The translations under genes were made by a program, and so were the position numbers. The notes under the pieces were generated by a model. It saw only the letters and a program-made list of their open reading frames with translations. It searched no databases and was not told the origin of the DNA. Shown one piece after another: positions 18,354-50,705 of a stretch of 58,901 nucleotides of DNA; the first letter of the stretch is position 1, and every line of letters starts with the position of its first letter. Location: the NCBI GenBank assembly GCA_913049555.1, contig CAJWYM010000010.1, positions 1-58,901 on the forward strand. The letters run 5' to 3'. The DNA is from an uncultured Opitutia bacterium (GTDB lineage Bacteria; Verrucomicrobiota; Verrucomicrobiia; Opitutales; CAJWYM01).

Positions 18354-21300
18354 TTATTCAAAAACAAGATTTTCAGCAGTCAATTGAATGTTGTTTAAAC
18401 CAGAGCGAATCTCAATCGGTTGAGACCAAACGGTTCCCTCTGGTCCAGCGGAAGTAGCTCCTATGATGAAATAACTGCCAGCAGATAAATCCTTGATAGT
18501 GAGCTCCCCTTTGCTATTAGTTCTACCACGCCCTACGCTTTTAGATGCCAAAAAGGATCGAATTTTGGCAGCGATCCCCGGGTAACTAAAACCATTTTTC
18601 AAAGACTTTCTCCATAAATCCGCCATAGAATTCACCGATCGTCCAGAAGGGACTTGAATTCCAGAGTCAGACAATAAACTTTCAAGATCCTGAGATACAA
18701 CAAAAAACTCTTTATAATAAACCGCAGTCACTCCTCTAGGACCGTTGATGGAAGCATTGACTTTTAATTGAGCATTTTTTAATACCGTCCTCGAACCAAT
18801 ATCAGCAGCTATTGTTTTGGGAGAATCTTCTTCAGGATTCAAATCAAAGTTCAATGGAGAAGACAATCGATCGTTACTAATTGAAATTTTAGGGATTTGT
18901 GAGATTGAAGAGGCTGAATTATTGGAAGATTGACTGCTAGACAATCTAGAAACCAACTCTAGCAAACGCTTGTTTTCTGAACGCAGTCTTTCTAAATTAA
19001 TGTTGGCTTGATCTTTCTGATTAATGATCCCTGAGAGTGCCTCTGTCAAACGAACAACCTCAGACTCCTTAGAAGCGAATTCACTTCTACGACGAGTAAT
19101 CTCATCCTGCAATCTTCCAACCAATCCCTTTAAATTGTTCACTTCAGAAGATGCATTTGAAGTCACTGAAACGCGCTGCTCCAATTTATTTTTATCAATA
19201 ATCAATTCATTAATTTTATCAGCAGAGCGATTTACTTTAATTAAAAGCAACTCATTTTCTTGACCCAAGGATATCAATTTACTCTCTAAACCTCTAGCCT
19301 CTTCAGCCAAATCAGCTTTTTGTTCCTTCAAGGTCTGCAAAGAAATGTTTAATTCCTCATTTCGAATCTCAAGGGAGGAAATTTTATCAGATCCTTCAGT
19401 GTTTACTGGTTGCCCCGAAAGGGAAATTTCCCTTTCTAAAGATTTTCTTTCCTCCTGAAGGCGTCTTATCTCAGCTTCCATGATAGATTGATTGTTTTGC
19501 AAATTAGATAAATTAGTAACTGCCGTTCCTAGTTGTTGGTTTGTGTCATCAGACTCCAACGCAATGTTTTGATTGAGAATCTTTAAATTCTCATTTTCAC
19601 TTTGCAAATTATTCATCCGATTCTGCAACCGAGAGATTTGCTCCGTTTGAACTTTAATTGTATCTAAATTTTGCTGCTCAACCTCTTTTTGGCTTCTAAA
19701 ATTGGAGGCTTTATCATTTAAAGAAACGATATTATCCGAAAGTCTTTTTATTTCAAACGCACGATCTTCCAAAACTTCATTCAACCTTTCTATTGTTTCA
19801 TCTTTATCACTCAAAGAAGTTCTTAGAGATTCCAACTCCCTCTTCAACAATACAAGGTTTTCGTTCAATGTATCGCCCTCAGCCGAAATTTTCTGTAATT
19901 GAGAAATCTTAACTTGTGCTTGCCGTAGATCCCTTAAATAATTTTTAGCTTCTTGATCCGAAAGATTTCTCTGTTCGATATTTTTAGCAAGCTCAGCCTC
20001 TAAAATTTTAATATGGTCGCTTAATCGACTCACGGTTTGATTGGCATCGAGCAATTTATCGTTTCTATCTTTGACCTTAAAGTTGCTATCATTTTGTAAA
20101 CTGGACAACTTCTGCCGTAATTCTTTGGCCTCTCTTTCGGCAGATTCCAGAGATTTTTTCATTTGCTCCGTTGCTATAGAAACGTTTGCGTATTTTTCTT
20201 TTATTTCAAAAAGTTGATCCTCAATGATTTTAGAACTCGATGATTTCGCTTGAGAACGAATTAAGTCCTGCTCCATATCACGGATCAATGTCATTCTTCG
20301 CTCTACGGTCATCTGTAGGGAAAGAATTTTTTTAAAGGCACCCATCAATTCTTTTCTAAGAATATCCGCTTCCTTATTAAATTTTTTTGCAGCTAATTGG
20401 CTTTGCTCGAGTTCATTCTGCAAGGAATCCATCTTTGCAAGATTGCGACCATTAGCATCATCAATCTCTTCAATCTGGGTTACTTTGAGTCGCAATTCTT
20501 TGGATTCAACTTCTAAAGAAGCAATGGTAGACTTGGCTTTTCTCAAGCTCGTTTTTAAATCTAAAATCTTATCATTCGAATCTTTTAAATCTCGTTCTAA
20601 ACGGATTTTTTCTCGACTGCTTTGTTCGTCCTTTACAGACAAATTCAACTTTTGATTTTCATTTTTCAATGATTTATTTTTACTGATGAGTTCATTCAAT
20701 GATTGCTCTGTCTCCTCTAGAGCCAATCTTAATGAAGAAAGAATTTGTTCTTTTTCCTGCAATCTTTGTGAATTCTTTTTTAAATTCATTTCCAGAGAAT
20801 TAATTCTGTCATCCCTAGAGTTCCCCTCTTTGTTTAAAAGACGTAGACGCTCTAATTCATTGTTTAAAGACTGAACCTTAGAACGGGTTTCAGACAACTG
20901 ATTTTGATAATCATTTTCTGTTTTAAGAAGCTCTCTCTGGAGACTTTCTTGAATCTCTAATAAATTCGACTCCAAGCTTTTTACTTTTTCCTCCAATAAT
21001 TTTTTCTCCTCGGCAGCTAAGGTGTTTTTACTGTTTCTAATTACTTTTAATTGTTTACGATAATCTTGAACTTCAAATTCATACTTTTCCTTAAGATTCT
21101 TATATTCGTTCTGACTAGAGTTTAAAACTTGTTTCAATTCAGCAATTTGAAATCTTAATTTTTCAAATTCATCAGGGCTAGAGGATGTGGATATTTGATT
21201 GCGAGCCTCGGCTAATTCACGTCTCAAAAGATCCATCTCACTCTGAAGGTCCTTTCGCTCTGAATCAAAAGCATCGGTTAGTAAAACGATCGTATCTTCA

Positions 21301-24300
21301 CTGGAGGTTAATTTAATATTTAAAGCCTTTATAAGCTCTTTTAAATCCTCCTCCGATTTGGAACGATTTTTAGAACGGATTTCATTTTTCAAAACAACTA
21401 CTTGAGAATTAAGTTTTTTGATAATCTTATCTGAACTTAATTTCAAATCCAAGAATTCCGAATTTTTAAGGGAAAGTTCTTTTTTGGCAAGGATCAAGGA
21501 GGATTCCATATCTGCCATCAAGGTTTCGTACTCCTTTGATTTATCTGGATGTTCATTTAAAACAGAAACAGAGGCTGTTTTTTGAAGAATCAATAACTGT
21601 TCTTCAAGTTGAGTAACGGTATTTATGGCATCTAACTTTTCTTTTTTTAACAAAGAAATTTGTTTGTCTGCCTCTGCTAGGTCGGTTTCCAAAGTTGAAA
21701 CCGCACTTTCAATAGACGCTTTTTTAGAAAGAATGCGATTTTTAGTTTCTTTAAGTTCAAAAACGGTGGATTCCAAATCCTTTTGTAAATTGTTGACTTC
21801 TTCACTCAGTTGTTTTTTTGACAGAAAGCTTTCTTTTTTAAATTGCTCCAACTCTTTATTTTTGTCTGCAACTAAAAGCTCCAGTTCATTTAGTTTTTCT
21901 AGAGAGTCTCCGCTCTTATCTTGTTCAATAGTCTCCAGATTGGTGAATTGTTTCCGTAAATCGACTAATTTCTCTTTAAAACGCTGACTTTCTAATTCTT
22001 GAAAAGCGAGCGCTTTTTTTAGTATTCGAACATTTTCAGAGTCGGAGCTTTTCTGTTTTTCATATTCCAATTGAGTTTTTTCCAAATCATTCGTCAATCC
22101 AGAAATTAAATCCTCAAGTTGCTCGATTTCTTTGATGGAATTCTCACTTTTTTGGGAATCAGACAGTGATTTCAATTCATATTCTTTCTGAAGGACTTCC
22201 AACTCCTCTCTGGTTTTAATCAAACTTTCCTCTAAAAACCTTTTTTTATTTTCAACCTCTTTAAATCTAGCAGTTTTCTCATAAATCGAGTCTTTTGCTA
22301 TCTCCAAATCATCCCTTAACTGGATCACTAATTTGGTCTCTTGAATCAATTGGGTGTTGCTCGAAGATAAACTTTCTTTCATGTCCACGCGAAGAGAATC
22401 CAGTTCCAACTCAAGTCCATCGATAGATTGCTGATATTTTTGTTTCAATTCTTCAGACTCATCTACGAGGGCATCATATTTGCTCGAATTCTCTTTCAAA
22501 GAATCCGTTAGATTTTTTATTTTACTTTCGGAGAGAGCTCGCTCCTCCTCTATCAACTCTGTAATTTTGTTCTTTTCTACAACCCCTCTTGCTAATTCTT
22601 TTTCCAAAAGGTTGATTTCTGACTTTTCTCTTTCTAAATTTTTACTAAATTCGACTCGATCTTGATTTAAGGTATTTTGTAAATTTGCTATTTCTTCTCT
22701 TAACTTCGTAATGACATTTTCTAATTCTGCATCTTGCTTTTTATTTGCTTTTTGTTCTACCTCATAATTCTTGGAAACTTCTTCGTATTTGCTTTCAAGA
22801 TTCTTTGTGACGAGATGAAACTGCTCTTGCTTTTCAGATAGTTTCTTTGAAATAAGATCTACTTGAGATTTTAATGTATTTTCTCTCATCAATGCAGACT
22901 CCAATTTAGATTCCATCTCCGATTGTTCAACATCTCTCGTTTGCATTAACATTTTATTGTTTTGCTGAGCCTCTATTAATGAAGATCCCATTTTTTCGAG
23001 TAATTGTGCTCGTTTCTCCAAAACAGCTTCCAATTCCTTTTTTTCAAGATCTGATTGACGAACATGATTGTCGAATGCTTCCTTCAAATTGAGAGTATCC
23101 TTTTTCGTTTTAATACTACTCTCAACCCATTCGGCCTCGAGTTCTTCTGCATTCTTTTTCAATGAAGTCAACTCTCCCTCTAAAAATAGGATGCGATTCT
23201 TATGGGCAGTTAATTGTTGATTTAAATCGACTAATTCAAGCTTTTTAACTCTTAGAACCTCCTCTAAATCGGTGTATTCATTCTTCGAAATATTTAAAGA
23301 TTGCTCACTTTCAATTCTCCTCTCTTCTAGGGATTCTGAATTTGCAATTAAATTGGACAATTCATTTTTTAAGCGATCCAGATCTGAAGTAAAAAACTCT
23401 TCTTGCCTGTTTTTTAAAGTCTGAACAGAAGCCAGTTTAATCTGTAATTCTTTTATAATTTCATCAGATTTTTTTTGTTTGGCTTGTAAGGAGTTTATTT
23501 TTTTTAAACTACTCTCGTTCTTCTTAGAAAAGCCGTCCTTAAGTTGAACAATAAAAGCATCCTGATCTTTGCTTATTTTTTTAGAAAGTTCCTCGAGATT
23601 TTGAGCTTTTTTTAATGTATCTTTGTAAAGATTTCTTTGTGTTTCTAATTCTTGTTTTAATTTTGAATCTCTTTTATCAAGTAAAATCCTCTCATTGTCC
23701 CAGGTGGATTGAAATTTTTCAAACTTTGACTGGGCAACGGAAAGCTCATTCTGGTTGTCAAGGGACTTATTTCTTAACTTCTGTATTTCAATTTTTTTAT
23801 CCTCTAGAGATTCTTGGAATTTAACATCCAGAGTCGACAGATCTTGGCTTTTTTTTGCAATCACAGTGGAAAGATTTTTAAGTTTTGATTCTTGATCCAC
23901 TTTTTTTTGTTCTAATTGAACAATGATATTTTTTAGTCTTTGCACCTCTAATTCATTCGATCCCTTAATTTTAGAAAGCGTCGCACCCGTTTGATCTTTT
24001 ACATTTTCAAGTTCTTGGACTGCCTCGTTAAGCCTTGCTTTAAATTGATTGATACTTTCAGTAGATTCTGATTTTAGTTCCTGCCTTCTAAGAATCCATT
24101 GATCTGCTTTTTCTTTAAATACTTGCTTTGATTGTTCCATCTCTAACTGATTGGTTTTTATCAAATTCAGTAATTTTGTCTTTTCCTGCGACCATAATTT
24201 CTTGGAAGCATCCAAAACATCGCTGATTTCTTTTAACTCATTGTTCTTAGATGCAAGTTCATTCTTCAACTTCGATTGAATTAATTTGCTGGCATTCAAT

Positions 24301-27300
24301 TCCTCAATCAGTGATTGATAACGAAGGGAGTCTTGATTTGTTTTATTTTGTAAAACTTGAACAATTTCTAATTCGAGTTTATTGATTTGAATTTGTTTAT
24401 CAGACAACTCTTTCTCAAGAGACTGGATAGAATTTTCCAATACTTCGGTTTCTTGAAGTTGTATTCTTTTTAACTCTTCGAGATCCGTATTAGAATTCTT
24501 TTTGAGAGTATCCAATTCAAACAACAATCTTTCCTGATCTTCAGACATCTTTCTGGAACTTTTCTTCAATTTATCAGAATCTTTAACCAACTTTTCATAA
24601 AGATCATTTCTTGTTTCTAAATCATTCTCGAGCTTGGACAACGACCGATTCATATTCGCTTTTTCGTCAGCCCAATCCGTTTGGAAATCATCTAATTTCG
24701 ATGCAGCGTTCATCAGTTTTTCAGTTAAAACATTGATTTGAGTCTCACTTTTGATAGCTTGCTCCTGAACTTTCTTATAAGAAAGCTGAGTAGTAACTAA
24801 GGATTCATCGCTTGCAATCCGTTCCTTCATTAAAAGATCGTAGGCTGCATTTTGCTTGTCTAAATTCACTTTCAAGCGAGCTAAATCTTTCGCAAAAGAT
24901 TCTTCCTGTTTTCTTTGATATCCCTCTAAGGAGGAAATCTTTTTTTCTAAGGATTGAATCTGATCCTTGGCCTCTTTTCTTTCTTCCAACTGCGCTTTCA
25001 ATTGCAACTGACTCTCATCGAACTTTTTGGTCAATGCACTCAATAGTTCTTCTTGTTCTTGCTTGATTTTCTGAGAACTTATTTCTAGTGCATCCGCCTG
25101 ATTAAGAGCCTCTTTATACAAAGAATCCTTCCGAACTAAATCACCTTTTAATATAGAAATCGCTTTTTTGAAGTCTTTTTTTTCTTTTTCCCATAGAATC
25201 TGAGATTCTTGATTTTTAAAATCGAGATTTTCATATTCATTTTTTAACTTCTCAATCTTGATAATCAATCGCTTGATTTCCTGTTCTTTTATCGACTGAA
25301 GTTCAGAGAAACCCTTATCGGACTTTTCCTGAATTTCACGAACCCTTTCAACTGCTGCTTTGAGTTGATTCTTTAGTTCTATAGTTTTTTGAGTGCCTTT
25401 TTCGAAAAATTGGGCTTTTTCCAGCTCGAAAGCTTTTGAATTCGAGTTGAAGTCATTTTTAAACTGGTTGAATCTTTCTTCGCTTTTTTGAGTCAATTCT
25501 AATAATTTTGCCTTTTCTTCCGACCAAATGGTCATTGAAGTCCTGTAATCCAATTGCAGACGCTCCAATTCTTTCACTTTAGAAATCAATTCATTGTTAA
25601 GCTTCTCATTAATTTCCTTAGAATCTGCATTTTGTTTGAGTAACTTATTCAGTCGCTCTGCATCTTTTGGGGATTTTTTGTGAGTGTAGTTCTTAATTTC
25701 GTCCTTGAGTCTTTGATTTTCAGTATTTTGGAGGGTCCACTTTTTTTGAATAGACGCAATCGAGTCCTTTAGTTTTTTGGAATCCGCTGCATGGCGGGAT
25801 TTCAAATTTTCGAGATCCTCATTGGATCTTTTCTTGATTTCCTCAATCTGATTCAATGACGAAGTCAACTGTTCTTGTAAAAGCTTGTCCTTAGTTACCA
25901 CTAACAACTGCAATTTTTTAATCAACTGATTCTTAGCAAGGAGCTCTTTTTCAAGATTCTGGATCAGCGAAGTTGAAGATTCATTGACATGTTTCAAATC
26001 AACTTTTGCTAATTTCAACTCCTCTTCGAGGACATTTATCCTATTGTCATTCTGATTATTGAAGTCCTTACTTCTTTTAGCCAATAATTTTTCAGTATTC
26101 GCAATTACTAATTGTTGGGTCTCAATTGTAATCGTATTTTGAGAAAGCAGATTTTCGAAACGTGTTAATTTATCAAGAGTTGTTTTAAGCTCCTCGGATA
26201 AAGAGTCGTTTTTTCGATTGCTAGCTTCTAGGAAGTCTTCCATTTTTGATTTTTCAACTGCATAAGCATCCTCTAGGTTCTCATACTTTTCTTTAAAGAC
26301 CTTTAAAGACTCCATAGAATTCGCTTTTTTCTCAAGCTCAGCCAGTTGTTGCTTGGTAAAATACAATTCATTCTCCAATTTTTTAATAATTTCTGTAGAG
26401 GAATCTTTATTATCAACGAGCTCGGACAAAAGAGATTTAACACGGTTTCTTAAACGTTCTACATCCATTTGAAGTCCCAATGCAATTTTGTCCGCATCTT
26501 TTCTTAAAGTGCTATTGCGGTCCGTCAATTCATCATATTCGTCCAAACGAATCTTTAACATTTTCTTTAATTTACTCACTTCTTCTAAACTTGAATTATA
26601 TTTGTTCTTCAATTCAGAATTAGAGTTCGATAATTGTTCTTCAAGATCCATGATCGAAGATTCAAACCCTTTGATTTTACTAGCAGTTGCGGCTTCGTTT
26701 TCTTTTTTCTGCTTCTCAGCTGAAGCCAACTCTCTGCGTGCAATCCCCTCAATCAGTTTTAACTCATCTTTGGAGTCTGACAATTCAAGCTCTAGCTGTT
26801 TGATTAATTTTATTGAATCCGACTGTTGATTTTCTTTATCGATATTCAAACGCTGCAACTGACCATTTGCCTCATCCAAAAGAGATAAATATTCATCTCT
26901 CTTTTCTTTTAGAGAATTTTTTTCCTTTTTCGACTTTTCTTTTGATTCATCCAACTTTTTTTGAAATTCAAAAAGCTCTGACATCAACTCCTCATTTTGA
27001 TTTTTTGCCTCTATTTTGAATTGATCAAGCATTAAGATAGATTTTTTTAGATTATCTTTTAGTTTCTTAATTTCACTTGAAAGAGCAATTATTTGGCTTT
27101 CTTTGTTTTTAACCACCTCCTGAGTTGTTTTCTCCTTACCCACCAAAAGACCTCGCATTTGATCTAATTCCAACTTTAATTCTTCAATCATATTGGAATG
27201 TTTTGAATCTTGCTCTACTAATTTGGTTCTCAAGAGTGATTCGGCTTTCAATACATTCGAGAGCTCATCTTCAAGTTTTTTAATATTGCTGAAATGAGAC

Positions 27301-30300
27301 TCGCTGGAAAACTCTTTTCTTGAAAGAAGCGCTTTTTCAAGTTTTTCCTTATCTGACTCAGAAATCTTCAGTTGTTTTTTAAGTTTGTCCAACTCTTTGT
27401 AACTGACCGTCAACTTAAATGAAATTTCTTTAAGGCTTTCTGAATACCTAAAATCTGAATCTTCTTGGATTTTTTTAAACAAACTGATTTTTTTATTTAG
27501 CGCTTGTTCTCTTAGATCCTTGGTAGAAATTTTGTCACTCAGTTTTTGTAACTCTTCATCCATCTTTTTGACTAAAAAGTCATTTTTATTATTTAGTGTA
27601 TCGATCTGGTCTCGCAACTGAGACTCGGAAGAAGAAAGATTTACCAATTTTTCCTTTAAATTTTTTACCTGAGCAGACTGATGATCTTTAAGATTTTCTT
27701 CAGAAGTGGATCGCAGCTTCTTTAAGGAGATATTTTCCGTTGCCAATGACTGGAGTTTTTTTCTAGAACTCGCAAGATCAGCTTTTGTCTGGAACAATTC
27801 ATCCGTTAAAATTTTTATATCCTCTAAACTCTTATTCCTCTCAGCCAAATCTTTATCATTCAGGGATTTTAATTTCTCATTTAATCTTTCTTGGGAAACG
27901 TCTTTGTTATTAAGAGTAGATTGCAAAATAGTTAATTCAGATTCGAGCTCACGAATCAATAAGGCTTGCTTCTTTTCTTGAGATTCGTATCGAACTCTTT
28001 GCTTCCTTTCATTTTCGGCTATTTTGGAAAGCGCAATTTCCAAAGATTTAATTTTCTCACCCTGTAGGTTCTTGTCATTTTTGCGATTCGTGAGCGCTTC
28101 ATTGGTATTTTGCTTCTCTAATTGTAATTTATCTATCTGCTTTTTTGCTTTCAATAAGTCTAGAGAAGTTTTTTTCAAATCTTCTTTTAAGACTTCTATT
28201 CTTGAGGAGCTATCCCTCAAGTTGGTCTGCGTCGATTTCTTTAAAAAACTGATTTCAACGGTCAAATTTGCGACTCTTTTTTCTGCATCCTGAACAAGCT
28301 TCGCACTTTGCTCTCTTGCAACAATTGAATTTTGTTCGGCAAGAACCAATTCTTTTTCTAACTCTCGAATAAATTTAAATACTTTGCCCTGATCTTTTTG
28401 GTACTCCTCTTTTGCTGAATCATATGCATTTTGTAACTTTTCCAGCTGATTTTTAAGGAGCTTTACCTGGGAAGATGAATCACGATTATTGATCCCCAAT
28501 TTTTCACTCAAGGTCTCCAATTCGTTCTTAGCAGTGGTGAGTTGTTTTTCTAGAAAAATAATTTCATCAGTAAGCTTCTTTTTTTCGCTTTTAAAATTCT
28601 TGACCTTATTTCCATATTCTTGCTTCAAAGACTTTATATTCAACTCCATCATGGATCTCGCTTTTTCAATCTCTACATCGAATATTTTTTGTTGTTCTTC
28701 AATCTTTTGACTGATGGTTTCCTTTTCTTTCATTTCGTTGGTCAAACGATCTTCTAACTTTGAAATCAATCTAGAAACCTCTTTATTTTTGTTCCTATGA
28801 GTGGCTACAATTTGATCCATTTCAGACTCTGCCTCTTCTAATTGATTTCTAAGAAAATCTGTCTGCTTTTTGGTGATTGCATCTGCTTTGGCATTTTGCT
28901 CAGAAAGCTTTTTATTTTGTTTTTGCAAAGTTGAAATCTGCTTGGTTAGCGCATCGATTCTATTGGATGCGCTCTCTAATTTATCCTTTTGATTTAAATC
29001 CAAAGCGTCCAAAGCCTCTTCTTTACTTTTTAGATCCATCTTAAGGGATAATAGATCTTCGTTAGATTTCACTTTAGAAAGGTTGAGAGCCGACTCATAA
29101 TCCGACATTTTTAAAGAATACTCTTTTATCTTGATTTCCAAGTCCTCGATTTGGTTTTGATAAAGTTTTTTCTCTTCCTCAATTTTCCGAGATTGAGACG
29201 CTCGAGATCTAACGGCATCCTTCAAACTTGAATTCAATTGTTCTAGTTGATTTTGCATTTCAACTGTTTTCTTTTTTCCCAGGAATACCTGTTTACTAAG
29301 ATTACTCTCCGCAATCGATAACTTAGACTTTAAATCACTCACCAACTTCTCGGCATCTTTGATATAAAGATCCTTACTTGCTTTTTCTCGGGTTAAATTT
29401 TTAGTCGTTTCCTCCAATCTTATTAAAACTTTTTCGAGTTCTAATTTATTTACATCCATCAAAGCTTGGTCTTTAGAATGCACTTCTTGCATTAGTTGTA
29501 TATTGTCCCTGAGCTCTGTATTGACTCTCTGCATTTTCGCATAATCAGCAACATGCATCGTTTGCTTTGCAATTAAAGCCTCCCCGCTGGCTTTTAATTT
29601 TTGTTCTAAACTTCGAATTTTATCTGCGCTCTGCTCTTGAATTCTAAGCTGTCTTGTTTGACTGATTGCCAATTCATTCTTAGCTTTCAATAAGGTGCGT
29701 TCGAGCGATGAAATCAAAAAATCGGAATCTTCCTCGTGCTCAAAAAGTTTATCTTTTGCAATTTCCAATTCTCCGCGAACTTTTAAAATAGTGTTCTCGT
29801 AACTGTCAATCAACTGCTGCAAGTTTTCATCCCTTAAATCGATCTGACTGCTTGTTTGATTGAGTTGAATGGAGGCGGAATTTAAATTTTTAATTTGATT
29901 ACGCGCAGAAATAAGTTGCTTTTCCAACTGCACATTTTTCTGAAGAGCCACTTCTAATTCTTTTCCACTGTCACGAATAATTATGGATGACGTATTCTTC
30001 AAACGAGAGATCAAATCCTGTTTCTCTATTTCTAGTGTTCGGACCGTTGAAGTAAGAAATGAGATCTGCTTGGAGGCATCTGCTTCAAATTTCTTATCCG
30101 CAATTTTTAAGGCTTCCATTTGGTTTTTAGACTCCTCTAACTGAATTTTCAGTAGATCAAGATCATTATTTTTAAAATTTTTGTATTCTAGTGATTTTTT
30201 CTTTAATTCTTCAACCCTAAGTAAGGATTGTTCTAAAGCTGAATCCCGTTCAGCCAATTTCAATTTATAAAATTTTTCTAATTTTGCTTTTTCTTGAATC

Positions 30301-31742
30301 AATTGTTTTTCAATATTTACGATCTTCGAAATCGAATCATCTCCTACTGATTTTGATAGTTTTAGCTCTTTGTTTAGTAGATTATTTTGCTTTTCAAGAT
30401 CATTAACAAGGATTTTAGCGTTTTCTTCAGCTGAATTTCTAAGTGAAATTTCTTCAACAATCTTTCGATCCAATTCAAGAAGTTTCTTTTTAAAATTATT
30501 GATTTTCTGATTACTCTCTTTGCTTATGGCATCATAAGCACTGGACAATTCTTTGTTTTTTCTTCTTTCAGCTTCAAGTTCGGCAACCAAGCCTTTTAAT
30601 CTGGCGACTCTTGCAGATTCATTGCTAGATCTTGCTTTTAATAGGGTATCTCTCTCATTTGAAATGGAAACCAACTCATTTTTGAGTCTTTTTATCTTCT
30701 CTTTGGAATCTTGCAGTTTAGACTCAAGGGATATTCTTAGTTCAGACAATTGGTAAACAGAATCCTCTTCTATCTGTTTGGCAATCATCGTTTGAGAACG
30801 GAGTTTGCCTTTGGTATTTTCTAAAGCTTTCTCTAAACTTTTAATTTCCTCCAAACTGTTATCAATTCCAGTTCGGCGATTGTCTTCAGCTTCATTTAAA
30901 GCTAATTTAAGGGTTGCAATCTCTTGGTCCAAGGCAGCCAAAATCTGTTTTGAATCTTCTCTTTCAGATTGCTGATTGGCGATAGCAAGGGAAAGCTGCT
31001 CTTTTGACAATGCCAATTGATCTCGCAAAGACTCAATTTGTTTGGTATTGACTGAATTTATCAAACTTACTGAGGTACTTATTTTTTCAGAAGTTTGTAT
31101 TTTTTCACCATTCTCAAATCTACTTAAAGCTTCCGTATAAATACTTTTACCAGGATTGAGTCGAACTGCCTCTTCTAGAGCAGATTTTAATTGCCAATTA
31201 AAACGAAAAGGACTCAGCATTCCTTCTTTTTGAATTTTTTTGCTGTTAGTAGACAAAAATAGGCTTAATTGAAAATGCAATTCTGAGTTACTTGGGTCGA
31301 TTTCTATTGCCTGAAGATAAGAAGCAAAAGCATTTCTCAAATCAGCCTGAGAATTGTAATACTCTCCAAGAACTATTTTAATAAAAGGAGACTCAGGCAG
31401 GAAACGATCCGCTTTTAAAAAAAAGGGAAGCCCCTTTTTAGGTTGGTTTATTTTATTTAAATAAACGCCATACAATATATTTGCATATGCATTCTTAGGA
31501 TTCTTGGTCAGATAATTGGTCAACTTCCGATCTAAGACATCCGAGGGAGACCCTGAAGAGAATTCAGTCACCTCTTTAACCAAGGATTTTAAAATGGAGT
31601 CATTCGTTTGACTTTGAACAATCTTGATAGCCTGTGAATAGGGAGATTCAGCTATCAAACGGGTATAATTGCACAAAGATAAAATTAACAGGAGTAGTGG
31701 TAGTAGTAATAATTTTAATTTCACACTTAGAAAATGATACAT
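18354..31742 (-). CDS. Giant exported coiled-coil protein, 4,462 aa
   Basis: One uninterrupted reading frame encodes a protein of about 0.5 MDa. Order of parts: signal sequence (residues 1-31; LLLLPLLLLI core, possible cleavage after LIA); a TPR-like helical region (about 66-208, with AFASYLQAIEIDPS); a heptad-rich coiled coil from about 228 to 4267; a Ser/Pro linker (about 4268-4322); and a compact C-terminal domain (4323-4462). The rod is Glu/Lys/Leu/Ser rich. I count only about four prolines in it and see no cysteine. There is no Walker A motif, so it is not an SMC/Rad50 ATPase. A continuous rod of 4,000 residues would span roughly 0.6 micrometres at 0.15 nm per residue. The C-terminal domain is shared with the 352-aa protein at 48.4 kb. 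Function unknown; an envelope tether, stalk or ruler is inference. Confidence 0.93.
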   Translation of the reverse strand: MYHFLSVKLKLLLLPLLLLILSLCNYTRLIAESPYSQAIKIVQSQTNDSILKSLVKEVTEFSSGSPSDVLDRKLTNYLTKNPKNAYANILYGVYLNKINQPKKGLPFFLKADRFLPESPFIKIVLGEYYNSQADLRNAFASYLQAIEIDPSNSELHFQLSLFLSTNSKKIQKEGMLSPFRFNWQLKSALEEAVRLNPGKSIYTEALSRFENGEKIQTSEKISTSVSLINSVNTKQIESLRDQLALSKEQLSLAIANQQSEREDSKQILAALDQEIATLKLALNEAEDNRRTGIDNSLEEIKSLEKALENTKGKLRSQTMIAKQIEEDSVYQLSELRISLESKLQDSKEKIKRLKNELVSISNERDTLLKARSSNESARVARLKGLVAELEAERRKNKELSSAYDAISKESNQKINNFKKKLLELDRKIVEEISLRNSAEENAKILVNDLEKQNNLLNKELKLSKSVGDDSISKIVNIEKQLIQEKAKLEKFYKLKLAERDSALEQSLLRVEELKKKSLEYKNFKNNDLDLLKIQLEESKNQMEALKIADKKFEADASKQISFLTSTVRTLEIEKQDLISRLKNTSSIIIRDSGKELEVALQKNVQLEKQLISARNQIKNLNSASIQLNQTSSQIDLRDENLQQLIDSYENTILKVRGELEIAKDKLFEHEEDSDFLISSLERTLLKAKNELAISQTRQLRIQEQSADKIRSLEQKLKASGEALIAKQTMHVADYAKMQRVNTELRDNIQLMQEVHSKDQALMDVNKLELEKVLIRLEETTKNLTREKASKDLYIKDAEKLVSDLKSKLSIAESNLSKQVFLGKKKTVEMQNQLEQLNSSLKDAVRSRASQSRKIEEEKKLYQNQIEDLEIKIKEYSLKMSDYESALNLSKVKSNEDLLSLKMDLKSKEEALDALDLNQKDKLESASNRIDALTKQISTLQKQNKKLSEQNAKADAITKKQTDFLRNQLEEAESEMDQIVATHRNKNKEVSRLISKLEDRLTNEMKEKETISQKIEEQQKIFDVEIEKARSMMELNIKSLKQEYGNKVKNFKSEKKKLTDEIIFLEKQLTTAKNELETLSEKLGINNRDSSSQVKLLKNQLEKLQNAYDSAKEEYQKDQGKVFKFIRELEKELVLAEQNSIVAREQSAKLVQDAEKRVANLTVEISFLKKSTQTNLRDSSSRIEVLKEDLKKTSLDLLKAKKQIDKLQLEKQNTNEALTNRKNDKNLQGEKIKSLEIALSKIAENERKQRVRYESQEKKQALLIRELESELTILQSTLNNKDVSQERLNEKLKSLNDKDLAERNKSLEDIKILTDELFQTKADLASSRKKLQSLATENISLKKLRSTSEENLKDHQSAQVKNLKEKLVNLSSSESQLRDQIDTLNNKNDFLVKKMDEELQKLSDKISTKDLREQALNKKISLFKKIQEDSDFRYSESLKEISFKLTVSYKELDKLKKQLKISESDKEKLEKALLSRKEFSSESHFSNIKKLEDELSNVLKAESLLRTKLVEQDSKHSNMIEELKLELDQMRGLLVGKEKTTQEVVKNKESQIIALSSEIKKLKDNLKKSILMLDQFKIEAKNQNEELMSELFEFQKKLDESKEKSKKEKNSLKEKRDEYLSLLDEANGQLQRLNIDKENQQSDSIKLIKQLELELSDSKDELKLIEGIARRELASAEKQKKENEAATASKIKGFESSIMDLEEQLSNSNSELKNKYNSSLEEVSKLKKMLKIRLDEYDELTDRNSTLRKDADKIALGLQMDVERLRNRVKSLLSELVDNKDSSTEIIKKLENELYFTKQQLAELEKKANSMESLKVFKEKYENLEDAYAVEKSKMEDFLEASNRKNDSLSEELKTTLDKLTRFENLLSQNTITIETQQLVIANTEKLLAKRSKDFNNQNDNRINVLEEELKLAKVDLKHVNESSTSLIQNLEKELLAKNQLIKKLQLLVVTKDKLLQEQLTSSLNQIEEIKKRSNEDLENLKSRHAADSKKLKDSIASIQKKWTLQNTENQRLKDEIKNYTHKKSPKDAERLNKLLKQNADSKEINEKLNNELISKVKELERLQLDYRTSMTIWSEEKAKLLELTQKSEERFNQFKNDFNSNSKAFELEKAQFFEKGTQKTIELKNQLKAAVERVREIQEKSDKGFSELQSIKEQEIKRLIIKIEKLKNEYENLDFKNQESQILWEKEKKDFKKAISILKGDLVRKDSLYKEALNQADALEISSQKIKQEQEELLSALTKKFDESQLQLKAQLEERKEAKDQIQSLEKKISSLEGYQRKQEESFAKDLARLKVNLDKQNAAYDLLMKERIASDESLVTTQLSYKKVQEQAIKSETQINVLTEKLMNAASKLDDFQTDWADEKANMNRSLSKLENDLETRNDLYEKLVKDSDKLKKSSRKMSEDQERLLFELDTLKKNSNTDLEELKRIQLQETEVLENSIQSLEKELSDKQIQINKLELEIVQVLQNKTNQDSLRYQSLIEELNASKLIQSKLKNELASKNNELKEISDVLDASKKLWSQEKTKLLNLIKTNQLEMEQSKQVFKEKADQWILRRQELKSESTESINQFKARLNEAVQELENVKDQTGATLSKIKGSNELEVQRLKNIIVQLEQKKVDQESKLKNLSTVIAKKSQDLSTLDVKFQESLEDKKIEIQKLRNKSLDNQNELSVAQSKFEKFQSTWDNERILLDKRDSKLKQELETQRNLYKDTLKKAQNLEELSKKISKDQDAFIVQLKDGFSKKNESSLKKINSLQAKQKKSDEIIKELQIKLASVQTLKNRQEEFFTSDLDRLKNELSNLIANSESLEERRIESEQSLNISKNEYTDLEEVLRVKKLELVDLNQQLTAHKNRILFLEGELTSLKKNAEELEAEWVESSIKTKKDTLNLKEAFDNHVRQSDLEKKELEAVLEKRAQLLEKMGSSLIEAQQNNKMLMQTRDVEQSEMESKLESALMRENTLKSQVDLISKKLSEKQEQFHLVTKNLESKYEEVSKNYEVEQKANKKQDAELENVITKLREEIANLQNTLNQDRVEFSKNLEREKSEINLLEKELARGVVEKNKITELIEEERALSESKIKNLTDSLKENSSKYDALVDESEELKQKYQQSIDGLELELDSLRVDMKESLSSSNTQLIQETKLVIQLRDDLEIAKDSIYEKTARFKEVENKKRFLEESLIKTREELEVLQKEYELKSLSDSQKSENSIKEIEQLEDLISGLTNDLEKTQLEYEKQKSSDSENVRILKKALAFQELESQRFKEKLVDLRKQFTNLETIEQDKSGDSLEKLNELELLVADKNKELEQFKKESFLSKKQLSEEVNNLQKDLESTVFELKETKNRILSKKASIESAVSTLETDLAEADKQISLLKKEKLDAINTVTQLEEQLLILQKTASVSVLNEHPDKSKEYETLMADMESSLILAKKELSLKNSEFLDLKLSSDKIIKKLNSQVVVLKNEIRSKNRSKSEEDLKELIKALNIKLTSSEDTIVLLTDAFDSERKDLQSEMDLLRRELAEARNQISTSSSPDEFEKLRFQIAELKQVLNSSQNEYKNLKEKYEFEVQDYRKQLKVIRNSKNTLAAEEKKLLEEKVKSLESNLLEIQESLQRELLKTENDYQNQLSETRSKVQSLNNELERLRLLNKEGNSRDDRINSLEMNLKKNSQRLQEKEQILSSLRLALEETEQSLNELISKNKSLKNENQKLNLSVKDEQSSREKIRLERDLKDSNDKILDLKTSLRKAKSTIASLEVESKELRLKVTQIEEIDDANGRNLAKMDSLQNELEQSQLAAKKFNKEADILRKELMGAFKKILSLQMTVERRMTLIRDMEQDLIRSQAKSSSSKIIEDQLFEIKEKYANVSIATEQMKKSLESAEREAKELRQKLSSLQNDSNFKVKDRNDKLLDANQTVSRLSDHIKILEAELAKNIEQRNLSDQEAKNYLRDLRQAQVKISQLQKISAEGDTLNENLVLLKRELESLRTSLSDKDETIERLNEVLEDRAFEIKRLSDNIVSLNDKASNFRSQKEVEQQNLDTIKVQTEQISRLQNRMNNLQSENENLKILNQNIALESDDTNQQLGTAVTNLSNLQNNQSIMEAEIRRLQEERKSLEREISLSGQPVNTEGSDKISSLEIRNEELNISLQTLKEQKADLAEEARGLESKLISLGQENELLLIKVNRSADKINELIIDKNKLEQRVSVTSNASSEVNNLKGLVGRLQDEITRRRSEFASKESEVVRLTEALSGIINQKDQANINLERLRSENKRLLELVSRLSSSQSSNNSASSISQIPKISISNDRLSSPLNFDLNPEEDSPKTIAADIGSRTVLKNAQLKVNASINGPRGVTAVYYKEFFVVSQDLESLLSDSGIQVPSGRSVNSMADLWRKSLKNGFSYPGIAAKIRSFLASKSVGRGRTNSKGELTIKDLSAGSYFIIGATSAGPEGTVWSQPIEIRSGLNNIQLTAENLVFE
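18357..18776 (-). other. C-terminal ~140-aa domain of the giant protein, shared with a second protein
   Basis: This segment encodes residues 4323-4462. The first half is helical (EFFVVSQDLESLLSDSG, then YPGIAAKIRSFL). The second half looks like a small beta sandwich of the carboxypeptidase-regulatory/transthyretin type (RTNSKGELTIKDLSAG, SYFIIGA, GPEGTVWSQPIEI, NNIQLTAEN). The protein at 48415-49473 ends with the same sequence of elements. It is probably the anchoring or binding head of the rod. Confidence 0.8.
23100..25530 (-). repeat. Long-period internal repeats in the coiled-coil rod
   Basis: Tryptophans are rare in the rod but recur here in WxxEK-type blocks at about 25525, 25192, 24673, 24193 and 23701. 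Three of them (25192, 24673, 23701) start homologous segments with the pattern W, then SxLxxxLxxRxxLY about 13 residues later, then SxKxxxxQ. The other two (25525: WSEEKAKLLEL; 24193: WSQEKTKLLNL) are also alike, as are the segments after them. Spacings are 111, 173, 160 and 164 residues. This suggests growth of the rod by duplication of segments a few hundred residues long. Confidence 0.6.
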
Positions 31743-34565: not shown

Positions 34566-34880
34566 ATGAATGATAGGATTTTAATCGCTTGGACAACCCT
34601 GCCGAACAAAAAGCGAGCTATTGAATTGGCTCACACACTGATCCGCGAAAAACTTTGCGCCTGCGCTCAAATTGATTCAAACATCACCTCTATTTTTTCT
34701 TGGGAAGGGGAAATACAACAAGAATCAGAGTGTAGACTTTTAATGAAATACACTTCAAGCACTCATGCAAAACTTGAAAAGAGGATCCAAGAAGTTCATC
34801 CTTACAAAATCCCCCAATGGATTTATTTTGAAGGAAATGCCAGCAATGAATATGCAGGTTGGATCCAAGGTAATTTGTAG
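34566..34880 (+). CDS. cutA: CutA family divalent-cation tolerance protein
   Basis: A 104-residue trimeric signalling-type protein of the CutA1 family. The diagnostic segments are present: AWTTLPNKKRAIELA, REKLCACAQI, SIFSWEGEIQQESECRLLMK and VHPYKIPQWIY. The Cys pair in the LCACAQI strand is at the usual metal-contact position. The precise role of CutA is still debated (copper tolerance, chaperone-like assembly). It diverges from rpoZ and converges on ribD with 3 bp between stops. Confidence 0.94.
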   Translation: MNDRILIAWTTLPNKKRAIELAHTLIREKLCACAQIDSNITSIFSWEGEIQQESECRLLMKYTSSTHAKLEKRIQEVHPYKIPQWIYFEGNASNEYAGWIQGNL

Positions 34881-34883
34881 AAA

Positions 34884-36011
34884 TTATGGGTATTTAACAA
34901 ATCCTCTTATCATTTGATCCTTGCCAAAAAACTCGTGATGAACCGCTTCCAGCTCAATTGCTTGATTGACTGACAAACATTCTCTTCCCACAAAGGCTCC
35001 CAAAGCTTGGTCATCCCCAAATATTTTTGGAGCTCGGTATGAATACAAATACTGAATAGCTTTCATTTCTAGCAAGGAAGCAATTAATTTTGCACCGCCT
35101 TCGAATAGAACTCCTGAAATTTTTTGCTGAAAGCATTTGTTTATAAATTCATTGAATGGAACTTGATTGTTTTCGTCGCTTTGAAAAACCCAGTAGCTAA
35201 TTGCGTGTTGCTTCAACAGTTTAAATTTAGATTTTTCTGCATGATTCAAGGTCACCACAATTGTTTTATGTTTAAAAGGATCTGAAAATAAATTCAGACT
35301 TCTTAAGTTCTCCTCATGAACAGAGCTAAGACTTCCGTCGAAGATAAAACGATAAGGACATCCTAAGTCTTGACCATTTTTATTTCTAATGGTCAAGCTT
35401 GGATTGTCCTCAAGGAGGGTCTTGGCTCCGATTGCAATTCCTGGAAAAAATTGGCGCCATTTCATAACATCCAATCTAGCTTGTTCTCCAGTTATCCATT
35501 TAGATTTTCCTGTACGAGTGGCAATCTTTCCGTCTAAAGTGGTCGCTACTTTTGCTGCAATTAATGGGGCGTTGTTGATTTTCCAATAATTATGGATCAA
35601 ATTTAAATCCAAACACAAATTTTTAAGCACTCCTCCAATGGTTTTCACCTTTAAGAATTTAAGATTTTTAAGCGCTGATCCTCTATATTGTGAGTCTGGA
35701 TATGGAGATCCAAAAATAACTTGAGTCACATTTAAATCATGGATCGCATCTACTTCAGATCCATTAGAGTATACCCTAGAAACAGGCTCCAAGGTAGTAA
35801 ACAATTTTCCACCATGGTCCAGCTTTCTTCCCAATTTTTCGCATGCTTTTATAATTGCAGAGTCCCCGGATCCATCTGCAGTCCATGCACTTGAAACAAC
35901 GATCCCATTTTCAACAATGAGACATCCTTGCAAAGGTTCCAACCCATTGGAACCCCACCCTTTTAAAGCCAGATCGTAAGCTTCATTCATAAAAATTTCA
36001 TTTGTTTTCAT
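34884..36011 (-). CDS. ribD: RibD-like riboflavin enzyme with degenerate deaminase and intact reductase domain
   Basis: A 375-residue protein with the RibD two-domain plan. The C-terminal reductase (about 148-370) looks functional: AAKVATTLDGKIATRTGKSKWITGEQAR, IGAKTLLEDNPSLTIR and VLFEGGAKL, all split here into short motifs. The N-terminal deaminase domain keeps its framework (LFTTLEP) but not its chemistry: the usual HAE is DSA at 50-52, the first zinc Cys of TLEPC is Val77, and the TPPC Cys position is Glu/Val at 86-87. No zinc ligand remains. It should therefore reduce 5-amino-6-ribosylaminouracil phosphate but not deaminate its precursor, as in plant PyrR. It diverges from leuB and converges on cutA. 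Confidence 0.88.
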   Translation of the reverse strand: MKTNEIFMNEAYDLALKGWGSNGLEPLQGCLIVENGIVVSSAWTADGSGDSAIIKACEKLGRKLDHGGKLFTTLEPVSRVYSNGSEVDAIHDLNVTQVIFGSPYPDSQYRGSALKNLKFLKVKTIGGVLKNLCLDLNLIHNYWKINNAPLIAAKVATTLDGKIATRTGKSKWITGEQARLDVMKWRQFFPGIAIGAKTLLEDNPSLTIRNKNGQDLGCPYRFIFDGSLSSVHEENLRSLNLFSDPFKHKTIVVTLNHAEKSKFKLLKQHAISYWVFQSDENNQVPFNEFINKCFQQKISGVLFEGGAKLIASLLEMKAIQYLYSYRAPKIFGDDQALGAFVGRECLSVNQAIELEAVHHEFFGKDQMIRGFVKYP

Positions 36012-36123: not shown

Positions 36124-37233
36124 ATGAAAAATTTGAAATTTGCAGTTCTTCCAGGCGATGGAATCGGTCCAGAGGTCATGGATGTTGCCCTAAAGGTTTT
36201 AAGAACAGCCTCCAATAAATACGAATTCAGCTTTGACTACGATTTTGCCGACATTGGAGGAGTTGCAATCGATCGTCATGGTAAAGCATTTCCAGAATCT
36301 ACTTTTAAAGTTTGTGAGAACAGTGATGCGATTCTTTTCGGCTCTGTAGGAGGACCTAAATGGGAATCTCTTCCGCCAAAAGACCAACCCGAAAGAGCCG
36401 CGTTACTCCCTATCAGAAAAGCATTTTCTTTGTATGCAAACGTTCGACCGGGTCTTCTTTACAAAGAATTGACCTCCCTCTCCCCACTAAAAAATGAAAG
36501 AATCGAAGCAGGTATTGATCTTGTTTGCATTCGGGAACTAACAGGGGGTATTTATTTTGGACAGCCCAAAGAAACAAGAATTCTTGAAAATGGAGATATC
36601 CAAGCGATCGATACAATGGTTTACAAAAAATCAGAAATTGAGCGGATCACCGAAATTGCAATCAGCGCAGCTCAACTTCGTGGTAAGAAACTTTGCTCTG
36701 TCGACAAAGCCAATGTCTTGGAAACTTCTGTCCTTTGGAGAAAAGTAGTCACAGAATATGTCCAAAAAAATGCTCCTGAAATTGAACTTAGCCATATGTA
36801 TGTTGACAATGCTGCAATGCAAATGGCTCGGGACCCCAATCAATTTGATGTTCTTTTGACGGAAAATATGTTCGGAGATATCCTGTCCGATGAAATGGCG
36901 GTCATTTGTGGTTCTTTGGGAATGTTGGCCTCTGCCAGCCTAGGAACTGGCAAGAATTGCCACAATCTACCGTATGGTCTTTATGAGCCAGCTGGTGGAA
37001 CCGCGCCTGACATTGCAGGTAAAAATTTAGCCAATCCATGCGCTCAAATTCTCAGTGCTGCACTGATGCTTCGATACAGTTTTGGGTTAGAAGAGGCTGC
37101 TCTAGGAATTGAAAATGCCGTCAAAAAAGCAGTCAAAGATGGGAACCAAACGGGGGACATAGCTCAAGAGGGCGTACAACCCATTGGAACTTCTGAATTA
37201 GGCGCTGTTGTTATTGAAAATCTGAACGCTTAA
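36124..37233 (+). CDS. leuB: 3-isopropylmalate dehydrogenase (LeuB)
   Basis: LeuB oxidatively decarboxylates 3-isopropylmalate with NAD in leucine synthesis. The 369-residue protein has LPGDGIGPEVM at the N-terminus, the substrate loop RELTGGIYFG, the catalytic Lys/Asp region SVDKANVLETS and TENMFGDILSDE, and the NAD site GTAPDIAGKNLANP. Length is normal. It stands apart from leuA/C/D and lies 11 bp before alaS, so the two are likely co-transcribed. The 112-bp gap to ribD holds both divergent promoters; I see no leader peptide with leucine codons. No Shine-Dalgarno motif. Confidence 0.95.
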   Translation: MKNLKFAVLPGDGIGPEVMDVALKVLRTASNKYEFSFDYDFADIGGVAIDRHGKAFPESTFKVCENSDAILFGSVGGPKWESLPPKDQPERAALLPIRKAFSLYANVRPGLLYKELTSLSPLKNERIEAGIDLVCIRELTGGIYFGQPKETRILENGDIQAIDTMVYKKSEIERITEIAISAAQLRGKKLCSVDKANVLETSVLWRKVVTEYVQKNAPEIELSHMYVDNAAMQMARDPNQFDVLLTENMFGDILSDEMAVICGSLGMLASASLGTGKNCHNLPYGLYEPAGGTAPDIAGKNLANPCAQILSAALMLRYSFGLEEAALGIENAVKKAVKDGNQTGDIAQEGVQPIGTSELGAVVIENLNA

Positions 37234-37244
37234 AAATTTTCATT

Positions 37245-39941
37245 ATGAATTCTGCAGAACTTCGCCAATCGTTTTTAAATTTCTTCGAGAAAAAAGGGCA
37301 TACAATTGTTCCTTCTGCACCTTTACTCCCTGATTCTCCTAACCTTCTGTTTACAAATGCTGGTATGAATCAATTTGTTCCGGTCTTTTTAGGGGAAAGA
37401 AGTTCTCCCTATCCCTCCGCTACCGATACACAAAAATGTATTCGTGCAGGAGGTAAACACAATGATTTGGAGGATGTGGGATTTGATACTTATCATCATA
37501 CTTTTTTTGAAATGCTTGGTAATTGGTCTTTTGGAGATTACTTCAAAAAAGAAGCGATTGATTGGGCATGGGAACTACTAACAGTTGTCTGGAAACTTCC
37601 AAAACATCGGCTCTATGCGACAGTTTATATGCCTGAAAAAGGAGAGCCTGCAGAATTTGATCAAGAGGCGCATAGCCTTTGGACTTCTATCTTTAGAAAT
37701 GAAGGATTAGATCCTGACAAGCATGTTATTTTTTCTGGAAAAAAAGATAACTTTTGGATGATGGGAGACACCGGTCCTTGCGGGCCTTGTTCAGAAATTC
37801 ACATAGATCTGACTCCAGAAGGAGACAGTGGTGAAAAGTTAGTGAATCAGGATTCTGGAAGATGTATTGAGATTTGGAATTTAGTTTTCATTCAATTCAA
37901 TTCTAATGAGGATGGAACGCTTTCAGACTTGCCGGCTAAAAATGTGGATACAGGGATGGGTTTTGAAAGGGTTGCCGGAATAATAGCAACCACAAAAAAC
38001 TTTACTGATTTTAGTGCAGAGCCTTCTAATTACGACAGTGATTTATTCTCAGACATTTTCAAAATCCTTACAGAGGAATGTGGTAAAGAATACAAGGGTA
38101 CGATTCCAAACTCCCGAGAAAACCTTTCAGATCAATCCATGACTGATTTTGCTTTTCGAGTGATCGCAGACCACTTAAGGACTCTTAGCTTTTCTATTGC
38201 TGACGGAATTTTGCCAGGAAACGAAGGAAGAAATTATGTGCTTCGTCGTATCTTAAGAAGAGCTGTTTTATTTGGACGTAAATTAGATCTTCCTGCCGGT
38301 TTTTTCGCTAACTTGGTAAAGACTCTTGTTTTAAAAATGGGAGCTTTCTTTCCAGAACTCATGGATCAACAAAAAATAATTACTAGCGTTATCCGATCCG
38401 AGGAAGCGTCCTTTGAAAGAACGATTTCTCGGGGGCTTCAGTTATTAGAAAAAATAGCTTTAAGTAAAGACAAGACCATTAGCGGCCTAGATGCTTTCAC
38501 CTTGTATGATACCCATGGATTTCCAATCGATCTCACTCAACTCATAGCCATTGAAAAACGCCTAGAATTAGACATGGAAGGTTTTGAAATTGAAATGGGA
38601 AAACAGCGAATGAGATCTCAAAAAGCAATCCAAAAATCTGTGATTTCCCTTAAAGATGGGGATGAGAAAGATGAAACTCCATTCGTAGGGTTCGATCAAA
38701 ATCAATTACTGAACTTAGAGACCAAACTAAAAAAATTTGTATATGGTCCCAAAGATGAAATTTATCTAATTTTTGAGAAGTCCAATTTTTATGCTGAAAT
38801 GGGAGGTCAATTAGGAGATCATGGAACCGTTAGGGTGGGAGAAAAGACTTTCAAAATCATAGATACCTTAAAAGACCCCAGTGGGCAGTTTTTGCATAGA
38901 GTCGACACCAATAATATTAAAGATATAGACAACTGGATTCAATCCACGGCAACCCTGAGTGTCGATCTCCGAAGAAGAAAAGCTTTGCAGGCTCACCATA
39001 GTGCTACCCATGTTCTTCATTGGGCAATGAGACAAATATTAGGAACTCATATTCGGCAAGCAGGTTCTCTCGTGGATTCAAACCGACTCCGATTTGACTT
39101 TTCACACTTTGAAACTGTCAGCATTCAAGACCAAAGAGCGATTGAAAGTTTAGTCAATCAGCAACTAGTCAAAAATGACTCTGTCCAAACTTTTGAGGTA
39201 AATTTCAATGATAAGCCTGTAGATGCAATTGCTTTCTTTGGAGAAAAGTACAGCGACACTGTTCGGATAGTAGACATCGGTGGCTATTCCAAAGAATTGT
39301 GTGGTGGAACTCATGTTGATAAAACAGGAGAAATTGGTTTTTTTAAAATTGTATCAGAATCTTCTATTTCAGCGGGTACCCGCAGAATTGAAGCCGTGGT
39401 TGCAGACAGTGCAGCGAACTATGTTTTTCAGCTCACAGATCAAGTAGAGAGACTTTGCACCCAATTCGGTTGTGGTCCCGATAAGCTAAATGAAAAAATA
39501 GCCCGTATTGAAGCTCAAAAAGAAGAATTACTAAGGAAATTAGAGCGCTATGAACAGAAAGGTCAAGCAAACCTAGCTGAATCCTTAGCTAAAAAAGCTA
39601 TTGAGAAAAACGGTATCCAGATTGTGGCAGCTTCTCTGGACAATATTGAAAGCAAGGAACTAAGAAACATTGCAATCCAAATATCAAAGAAAATGAGTAA
39701 ATCTTTGATATTATTAGGAATTTCTGATGAAAAAAAATCTGCCCTTTTATCCATGTGCTCCATGGAAGCGATCGAATCAGGTTATAATTCGGGGGATATT
39801 ATCCGTTCCATTAGCAATTCTTTAGGAGGTAAAGGAGGAGGGAAAGCTGATTTTGCAATGGGAGGAGCCCCAGCCAACAAAGAACAACTCAAAGAAGCTA
39901 TTTCTTTATTTATTTCACAAAACACAGAATCTCAAACCTGA
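37245..39941 (+). CDS. alaS: Alanyl-tRNA synthetase (AlaS)
   Basis: An 898-residue class II synthetase with all parts. The catalytic domain starts LRQSFLNFFEKKGH, and has TNAGMNQFVPVF, KCIRAGGKHNDLEDVG and GNWSFGDYFKKE. The editing domain has the zinc sites HHSATH and CGGTH. The C-terminal domain has a coiled linker (about 730-770) and the glycine-rich end GGKGGGKADFAMGG. Length is typical (860-900). It follows leuB by 11 bp; the upstream bases are A/T-rich with no Shine-Dalgarno. It converges on the GNAT gene, with 58 bp between stops. Confidence 0.97.
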   Translation: MNSAELRQSFLNFFEKKGHTIVPSAPLLPDSPNLLFTNAGMNQFVPVFLGERSSPYPSATDTQKCIRAGGKHNDLEDVGFDTYHHTFFEMLGNWSFGDYFKKEAIDWAWELLTVVWKLPKHRLYATVYMPEKGEPAEFDQEAHSLWTSIFRNEGLDPDKHVIFSGKKDNFWMMGDTGPCGPCSEIHIDLTPEGDSGEKLVNQDSGRCIEIWNLVFIQFNSNEDGTLSDLPAKNVDTGMGFERVAGIIATTKNFTDFSAEPSNYDSDLFSDIFKILTEECGKEYKGTIPNSRENLSDQSMTDFAFRVIADHLRTLSFSIADGILPGNEGRNYVLRRILRRAVLFGRKLDLPAGFFANLVKTLVLKMGAFFPELMDQQKIITSVIRSEEASFERTISRGLQLLEKIALSKDKTISGLDAFTLYDTHGFPIDLTQLIAIEKRLELDMEGFEIEMGKQRMRSQKAIQKSVISLKDGDEKDETPFVGFDQNQLLNLETKLKKFVYGPKDEIYLIFEKSNFYAEMGGQLGDHGTVRVGEKTFKIIDTLKDPSGQFLHRVDTNNIKDIDNWIQSTATLSVDLRRRKALQAHHSATHVLHWAMRQILGTHIRQAGSLVDSNRLRFDFSHFETVSIQDQRAIESLVNQQLVKNDSVQTFEVNFNDKPVDAIAFFGEKYSDTVRIVDIGGYSKELCGGTHVDKTGEIGFFKIVSESSISAGTRRIEAVVADSAANYVFQLTDQVERLCTQFGCGPDKLNEKIARIEAQKEELLRKLERYEQKGQANLAESLAKKAIEKNGIQIVAASLDNIESKELRNIAIQISKKMSKSLILLGISDEKKSALLSMCSMEAIESGYNSGDIIRSISNSLGGKGGGKADFAMGGAPANKEQLKEAISLFISQNTESQT

Positions 39942-50517: not shown

Positions 50518-50705
50518 AAGTATCCCCCATAGGCGCCGTTACAGTAGTGAGACCTTCTTTGACCCTTTAAGGTTCAAGTGGGTGCTTCTTTGGCAACCTT
50601 TGTCTTCCGGTTTACGGCTTGACAGCAGTCACCTCAGATAAGGCTCCCGGTAATACTAGAGTAAGAGAAAGAAGACAATTAGTTCTCGAACGCCACAGAG
50701 AATAC
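50518..50705 (-). ncRNA. ssrS: Probable 6S RNA
   Basis: About 188 bases with the 6S layout. The 5' end (GTATTCTCTGT then GGCG, from 50705) pairs with the 3' end (CGCC, one bulged base, then ATGGGGGATAC to 50520) to form a closing stem of about 15 bp with a few G-U pairs. An upper stem TTGTCTTC/GAAGACAA (8 bp, perfect) encloses an apical hairpin TGAC-TGCT-GTCA. The 3' side of the middle carries CACTTGAACC...GGGTCAAAG, closely like the CACCTTGAACC...GGGTTCAAGG hairpin of E. coli 6S. A T-rich stretch follows the 3' end. 6S RNA mimics an open promoter and holds the housekeeping RNA polymerase in stationary phase. Identification is by eye, not by covariance model. Confidence 0.65.

Follow-up and report, generated by a model that had tools for sequence, protein, structure and literature searches.

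A RibD homologue with a degenerate deaminase half and a separate stand-alone deaminase in an uncultured Opitutia bacterium

Bifunctional bacterial RibD/RibG enzymes (TIGR00326) carry a deaminase half and a reductase half. A RibD homologue encoded by an uncultured Opitutia bacterium (assembly GCA_913049555.1), on a stretch of 58,901 nucleotides that we call the window, has the same domain order and the same reductase active site but lacks the zinc ligands and the catalytic Glu, and it scores just under the TIGR00326 cut-off. Like Arabidopsis, this genome most likely divides the RibD deaminase and reductase over two proteins. In the cited parts of PMC9678776, Arabidopsis PyrD is homologous to RibD over its full length but has a dead reductase half, and PyrR has a deaminase-like domain without catalytic residues. 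Both plant partners are full-length and their dead halves are complementary, whereas the deaminase partner in our genome is a single domain of 148 aa. The original prediction that the window protein mirrors plant PyrR is supported: a dead deaminase half is fused to an intact reductase half and a separate deaminase is present. The one difference in the partner is that it does not have the full-length, two-domain form of PyrD with its dead reductase half.

Two further systems resemble this arrangement. Monofunctional archaeal and fungal enzymes also place the two activities on separate proteins (PMC3668577, in the sections used here). The archaeal-type reductase 2azn is 219 aa long. To our knowledge, the monofunctional archaeal and fungal reductases have no deaminase-like domain attached. 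In ADAT2/ADAT3, a dead deaminase domain is likewise kept beside an active paralogue; this pair is a proven heterodimer on tRNA and yeast ADAT3 still binds zinc (PMC7713142, as far as cited here), whereas the pair in the window genome is known from its genes.

The window gene is open over its full length (Table 1). When the protein is aligned with relatives and with the intact stand-alone deaminase that this genome also encodes, the columns of the HAE motif are occupied by S51-A52-I53, the first zinc Cys by V77 and the second by E86. The motif had at first been read as D50-S51-A52; the loss stands, but that register was off by one, and the middle Ala is retained. The predicted disappearance of both zinc cysteines and the retention of the LEP fold marker (L74-E75-P76, invariant across the 14-sequence alignment) agree with our alignment, and a realignment that could have recovered an intact HAE motif and Cys ligands still shows the zinc-site residues replaced. 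The Pfam deaminase model PF00383 has no match to the window RibD at E<=1, and RibD_C matches it. TIGR00326 covers nearly the entire protein at 151.9 bits (cut-off 156.35), and its score is at least 220 for all other full-length RibDs among the relatives' matches listed.

The degeneration extends beyond the zinc site. In the cited sections of PMC3668577, N28, H81, R84 and T85 of Acinetobacter baumannii RibD lie near the phosphate of the deaminase substrate. The window RibD has Glu, Arg, Ser and Asn at these positions, and 116 intact sequences have Asn (115), Thr (108), Arg (105) and Thr (115), respectively. Thus, all eight deaminase-site positions (A. baumannii N28, H54, E56, C79, H81, R84, T85 and C88) are changed in a frame that remains open. 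The zinc ligands and catalytic Glu of a bifunctional RibD were looked for in the deaminase half, and S51, I53, V77 and E86 were found instead; the window RibD should therefore not be classed as a bifunctional RibD. A single-sequence structure model of this protein was unusable (pLDDT 35).

Table 1. Positions of the features discussed; coordinates are those of the window unless a locus is named
Feature	Position	Strand	Remark
ribD homologue, 375 aa: degenerate deaminase half and intact reductase half	34884..36011	minus	no internal stop
degenerate deaminase half, residues 1-147	35571..36011	minus	no PF00383 match at E<=1
reductase half, residues 148-375	34887..35570	minus	RibD_C match 3.2e-28
leuB-type dehydrogenase, divergent neighbour of ribD	36124..37233	plus	
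alaS, second gene of the conserved neighbourhood	37245..39941	plus	matches relatives' genes; name from sequence
cutA, convergent neighbour on the other side of ribD	34566..34880	plus	PF03091
4462-aa open frame	18354-31742	minus	
6S RNA	50520-50704	minus	RF00013, 55.9 bits
extra RibD-type deaminase, G027	L137:2874-3629		
extra RibD-type deaminase, G242	L136:3139-3606		
extra RibD-type deaminase, G137	L135		
extra RibD-type deaminase, G483	L132		
short reductase-like protein, G505	L138:3278-4006		

The reductase half is retained, as had been predicted. All nine of the active-site residues checked (K154, S170, W172, T174, R179, R186, D202, R209 and E304) are kept; they correspond to those named for the A. 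baumannii reductase in the cited sections of PMC3668577. Q207, a main-chain contact in the A. baumannii enzyme (same source and sections), is Ser in the window RibD. Loss of the zinc site need not impair this half: a zinc-ligand knock-out in a RibD left the reductase active (Magalhaes 2008, as cited in PMC3668577).

The genome of 3.1 Mb (102 contigs, 95% complete) encodes exactly two PF00383 proteins at E<=10. One is TadA-like and the other is P0002, the separate deaminase that the original prediction had called for. P0002 is a single-domain protein of 148 aa with an intact HAE motif and both cysteines. Its best family match is TIGR00326 over the deaminase half (158.1 bits, above the cut-off), and the solved structures that match it best are RibD chains. 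A search of the genome with the RibD model recovered P0002, the window protein and the TadA-like protein, and no others. P0002 has N84, near the reported phosphate site, where 105 of the 116 intact sequences have Arg. The gene is located on contig C24 between metG and pnp, with rpsO also a neighbour. We also identified ribBA, ribH and ribE and, with P0002 present, the riboflavin pathway therefore has no visible gap. The four loci of this genome that were searched contained neither an FMN riboswitch nor any other Rfam family. P0002 is most likely the protein that performs pyrimidine deamination in this organism, and we infer that it would act on the riboflavin pyrimidine substrate in vivo.

An assembly of 102 contigs could in principle have brought together genes from two different organisms, or the loss in RibD could be a sequencing error. 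We consider either highly improbable. C24 and the window have the same composition (GC 0.389 vs 0.372; tetranucleotide distance 0.11, where distances inside the window are 0.08-0.19 and those to pieces of five other genomes 0.26-0.64), the listed contamination is 0.84%, and eight deaminase-site positions have changed together in an open frame.

The order of ribD, divergent leuB and alaS is common to relatives with a dead RibD (one whose deaminase half has lost its zinc site; L155, L156, L157) and to one with an intact RibD (L160). The window gene is therefore a native ribD and not an import. The window also contains a 6S RNA and a 4462-aa open frame that by eye is nearly all coiled-coil-like with a TPR-like start. 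Taking the loci together, we are confident that the window gene is a native ribD now encoding a monofunctional NADPH-dependent pyrimidine reductase with a dead, zinc-free deaminase domain, the preceding deamination being most likely performed by P0002. In such a pathway, RibBA would make the diaminopyrimidine, P0002 would deaminate this product, and the window RibD would reduce the deaminated product with NADPH. An unnamed phosphatase would act next, and RibH and RibE would complete the synthesis.

The window RibD is 35-46% identical to RibDs of the order in the 14-sequence alignment. Its closest relative is 44% identical among 372 genomes of the order and, among selected genomes, 46% identical (in G483). 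We aligned 147 RibD and deaminase sequences, chosen by similarity searches and not as a random sample (the reductase-only frame of L145 is absent from them), and P0002 was used as query against 252 genomes of the family with most relatives. The H, E, C and C residues are all present in 116 of these sequences; 26 others are dead, one is truncated (L117) and four have no deaminase half. The dead sequences comprise the window RibD, 20 of one clade and five of genus g46. Scans for relatives elsewhere gave two loci on viral contigs and one in named genomes (L066), a 35% match over 77 residues in a 157-aa frame with an ordinary PCxxC deaminase motif. Judged by titles and the starts of abstracts, we found no bacterial RibD with a dead deaminase half in the open-licence literature.

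The clade (g83, g86, g92 and g115) belongs to another family of the order, and its genomes encode a dead RibD in 20 of 22 cases and a stand-alone deaminase in 21 of 22. RibD was not found in G504 and G505, and that of G503 is a fragment at a contig end. The stand-alone deaminase was not found in G507, whose assembly is 88% complete. All 20 stand-alone deaminases read have HAE, Cys and Cys; that of G502 is known from its P0002 and PF00383 matches. Besides its stand-alone deaminase, G505 has a short distant reductase-like protein, about 26-29% identical (Table 1). Where the zinc loop would be, the dead RibDs of this clade share a conserved motif peculiar to them, EPGPSSNRLESG and close variants. 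Such a motif could mean that the dead half has acquired a new ligand-binding or regulatory site and is not a passive fold, which we think quite unlikely: the window RibD has EPVSRVYSNGSEV and lacks the clade motif, so no common new function is in sight.

Dead RibDs of another kind occur in five genomes of genus g46. Two of these, G484 and G065, carry a riboflavin operon that includes an intact deaminase. The operon ends in an intact RibD-type deaminase half in G484 (L145) and in a full RibD in G065 (L147). In G299 (L146) the operon lies next to nad genes and reads, by its translations, nadC-nadB-reductase-ribE-ribH-ribBA; it is cut by a contig end. The operon of these three loci looks acquired, judging from its genes, because the rib genes of g46 relatives with an intact RibD are less similar to it. 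In the two remaining genomes, G275 and G487 (L105, L110), we found no ribE, ribH, ribBA or second RibD-type deaminase; other PF00383 proteins in frames of about 150-400 aa are known there from the profile match. Thus, a dead half is not always accompanied by a visible replacement. Between G275 and G299 the reductase half has hardly changed (dN 0.006). It is possible that G275 and G487 are riboflavin auxotrophs with a leftover reductase, or that contigs are missing.

In a tree of the reductase half (94 sequences), the closest neighbour of the window RibD is intact and comes from family f9 (support 80/84); the dead clade (100/99) is placed separately from it. The tree omits six outlying reductases (L138, L147, L151, L152, L163 and L213) and sequences that are not dead beyond two per genus. 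The exact place of the window RibD in it is unsure because of long branches. On this tree at least four changes are needed to explain the dead RibDs, counted without the truncated L117. A single common origin of all dead RibDs was rejected (AU test, p = 0.0018; 25 dead sequences vs 68 others). Several independent losses of the deaminase within the order are shown by this computation. The bacterial losses are independent of one another. The likeness to plant PyrR described here is one of arrangement.

Selection was measured in relatives, as the family of the window protein is represented by one genome, and on hand-chosen pairs that are not independent and in many of which dS is near saturation. 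The dead half in the four-genus clade has dN/dS of 0.03-0.10 in nine of 11 pairs, dS being saturated in the other two. Two g46 pairs gave 0.21 and 0.14, and 14 intact pairs gave 0.09-0.33. The dead half of the clade is therefore maintained by purifying selection. Constraint on it nevertheless looks relaxed: in dead pairs the ratio of non-synonymous change between the N half and the reductase half goes up to 7-fold, compared with 0.4-2.8 in intact pairs.

These measurements bear on what the dead half is for. It could be a recent relic without a role, on its way to being lost; in favour of this, the N half of the window RibD is 33% identical to intact relatives compared with 43% for the C half, the reverse of what is seen in the three intact sequences shown. 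We regard such decay as unlikely, since the frame is open over its full length and the dead domain of the clade persists across four genera with dN/dS far below 1. Another possibility, which we hold to be doubtful, is that the dead half serves as a binding partner, of the stand-alone deaminase or of a neighbouring subunit, and would be needed for activity or for transfer of the intermediate. At least three lineages keep it at full length, and in the clade it is under purifying selection; ADAT2 requires dead ADAT3 in the same superfamily (PMC7713142, cited parts), inactive domains have been proposed to serve protein contacts in plant PyrD/PyrR (PMC9678776, cited parts), and the deaminase domain of Francisella RibD is an interaction surface for enolase (PMC12742849, cited parts). 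Against such a partner role stands the non-synonymous change in the dead half, which in dead pairs reaches 7 times that of the reductase half and suggests relaxed constraint. For the monofunctional reductase that we favour, we infer that the dead half is retained for folding or assembly of the reductase.

A tree of active deaminase domains (79 sequences, keeping one intact RibD per genus) groups the 25 stand-alone genes other than L145, P0002 included (91/89, not starred). P0002 forms a long branch and is placed (85/71) with a type from four genomes of four families, G027, G242, G137 and G483. In a search of 344 genomes of the order, this type appeared among the best matches only in G242, G027 and G137; that of G483 came from the P0002 search of genomes. 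If P0002 were a partial copy from its own RibD lineage, it should group with the RibD of G008, the nearest relative on the reductase tree; this grouping is disfavoured (p = 0.051). The four genomes with the extra deaminase (Table 1) also have a full RibD, and HAE, Cys and Cys are present in all three of these RibDs that were read, L096 (G483), L119 (G137) and L009 (G027).

The surroundings of these genes point to zinc. The extra deaminase of G027 forms a fusion with YidD, and around it lie genes for HisI, CysRS, a COG0523 GTPase, a MerC-like protein and a regulator of the Fur family; the best model for the GTPase is the zinc chaperone ZigA, below its cut-off. YidD and HisI are adjacent to the extra deaminase in G242, and at L140, in the dead clade, the stand-alone deaminase gene overlaps yidD. 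Zinc-limitation clusters with nine families of zinc-enzyme paralogues, HisI and CysRS included, are described in the cited parts of PMC2770081. The surroundings in G027 and G242 have the same make-up as these Zur/COG0523 clusters, but RibD is not among the nine families in those parts of the paper, and the deaminase of the window genome, with metG, pnp and rpsO as neighbours, has no COG0523/Zur cluster around it.

That related stand-alone deaminases lie in clusters of the zinc-limitation type suggests how the split began. Given these clusters, it would be plausible for a backup copy to have become the sole enzyme and for the zinc site of RibD to have decayed afterwards. A broader scenario, which we rate as less likely than not, goes further: a single-domain RibD-type deaminase may have arisen in the order as a backup for zinc limitation, which would extend the nine Zur paralogue families of PMC2770081, and may have spread between families and taken over the step permanently in at least two lineages. 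The RibD zinc domain would then have become zinc-free and would be maintained by selection, perhaps because it partners the new enzyme. G027, G242, G137 and G483, with a full RibD and an extra deaminase, are possible living intermediates of the takeover.

The case described here belongs to a known kind of enzyme splitting, in a bacterial variant that has recurred. Bifunctional fusions tend to be imagined as stable, and yet one bacterial order has reversed a fusion several times. On each occasion one half died and stayed on as a full-length remnant, as in plants. Genes of this kind are easily called bifunctional RibD by homology, and would then be assigned, in pathway reconstructions, a step that is most likely beyond them. 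The repeated splits provide natural replicates for asking why a dead domain is retained, and the connection with zinc-limitation clusters suggests a way, open to testing, in which such splits begin.
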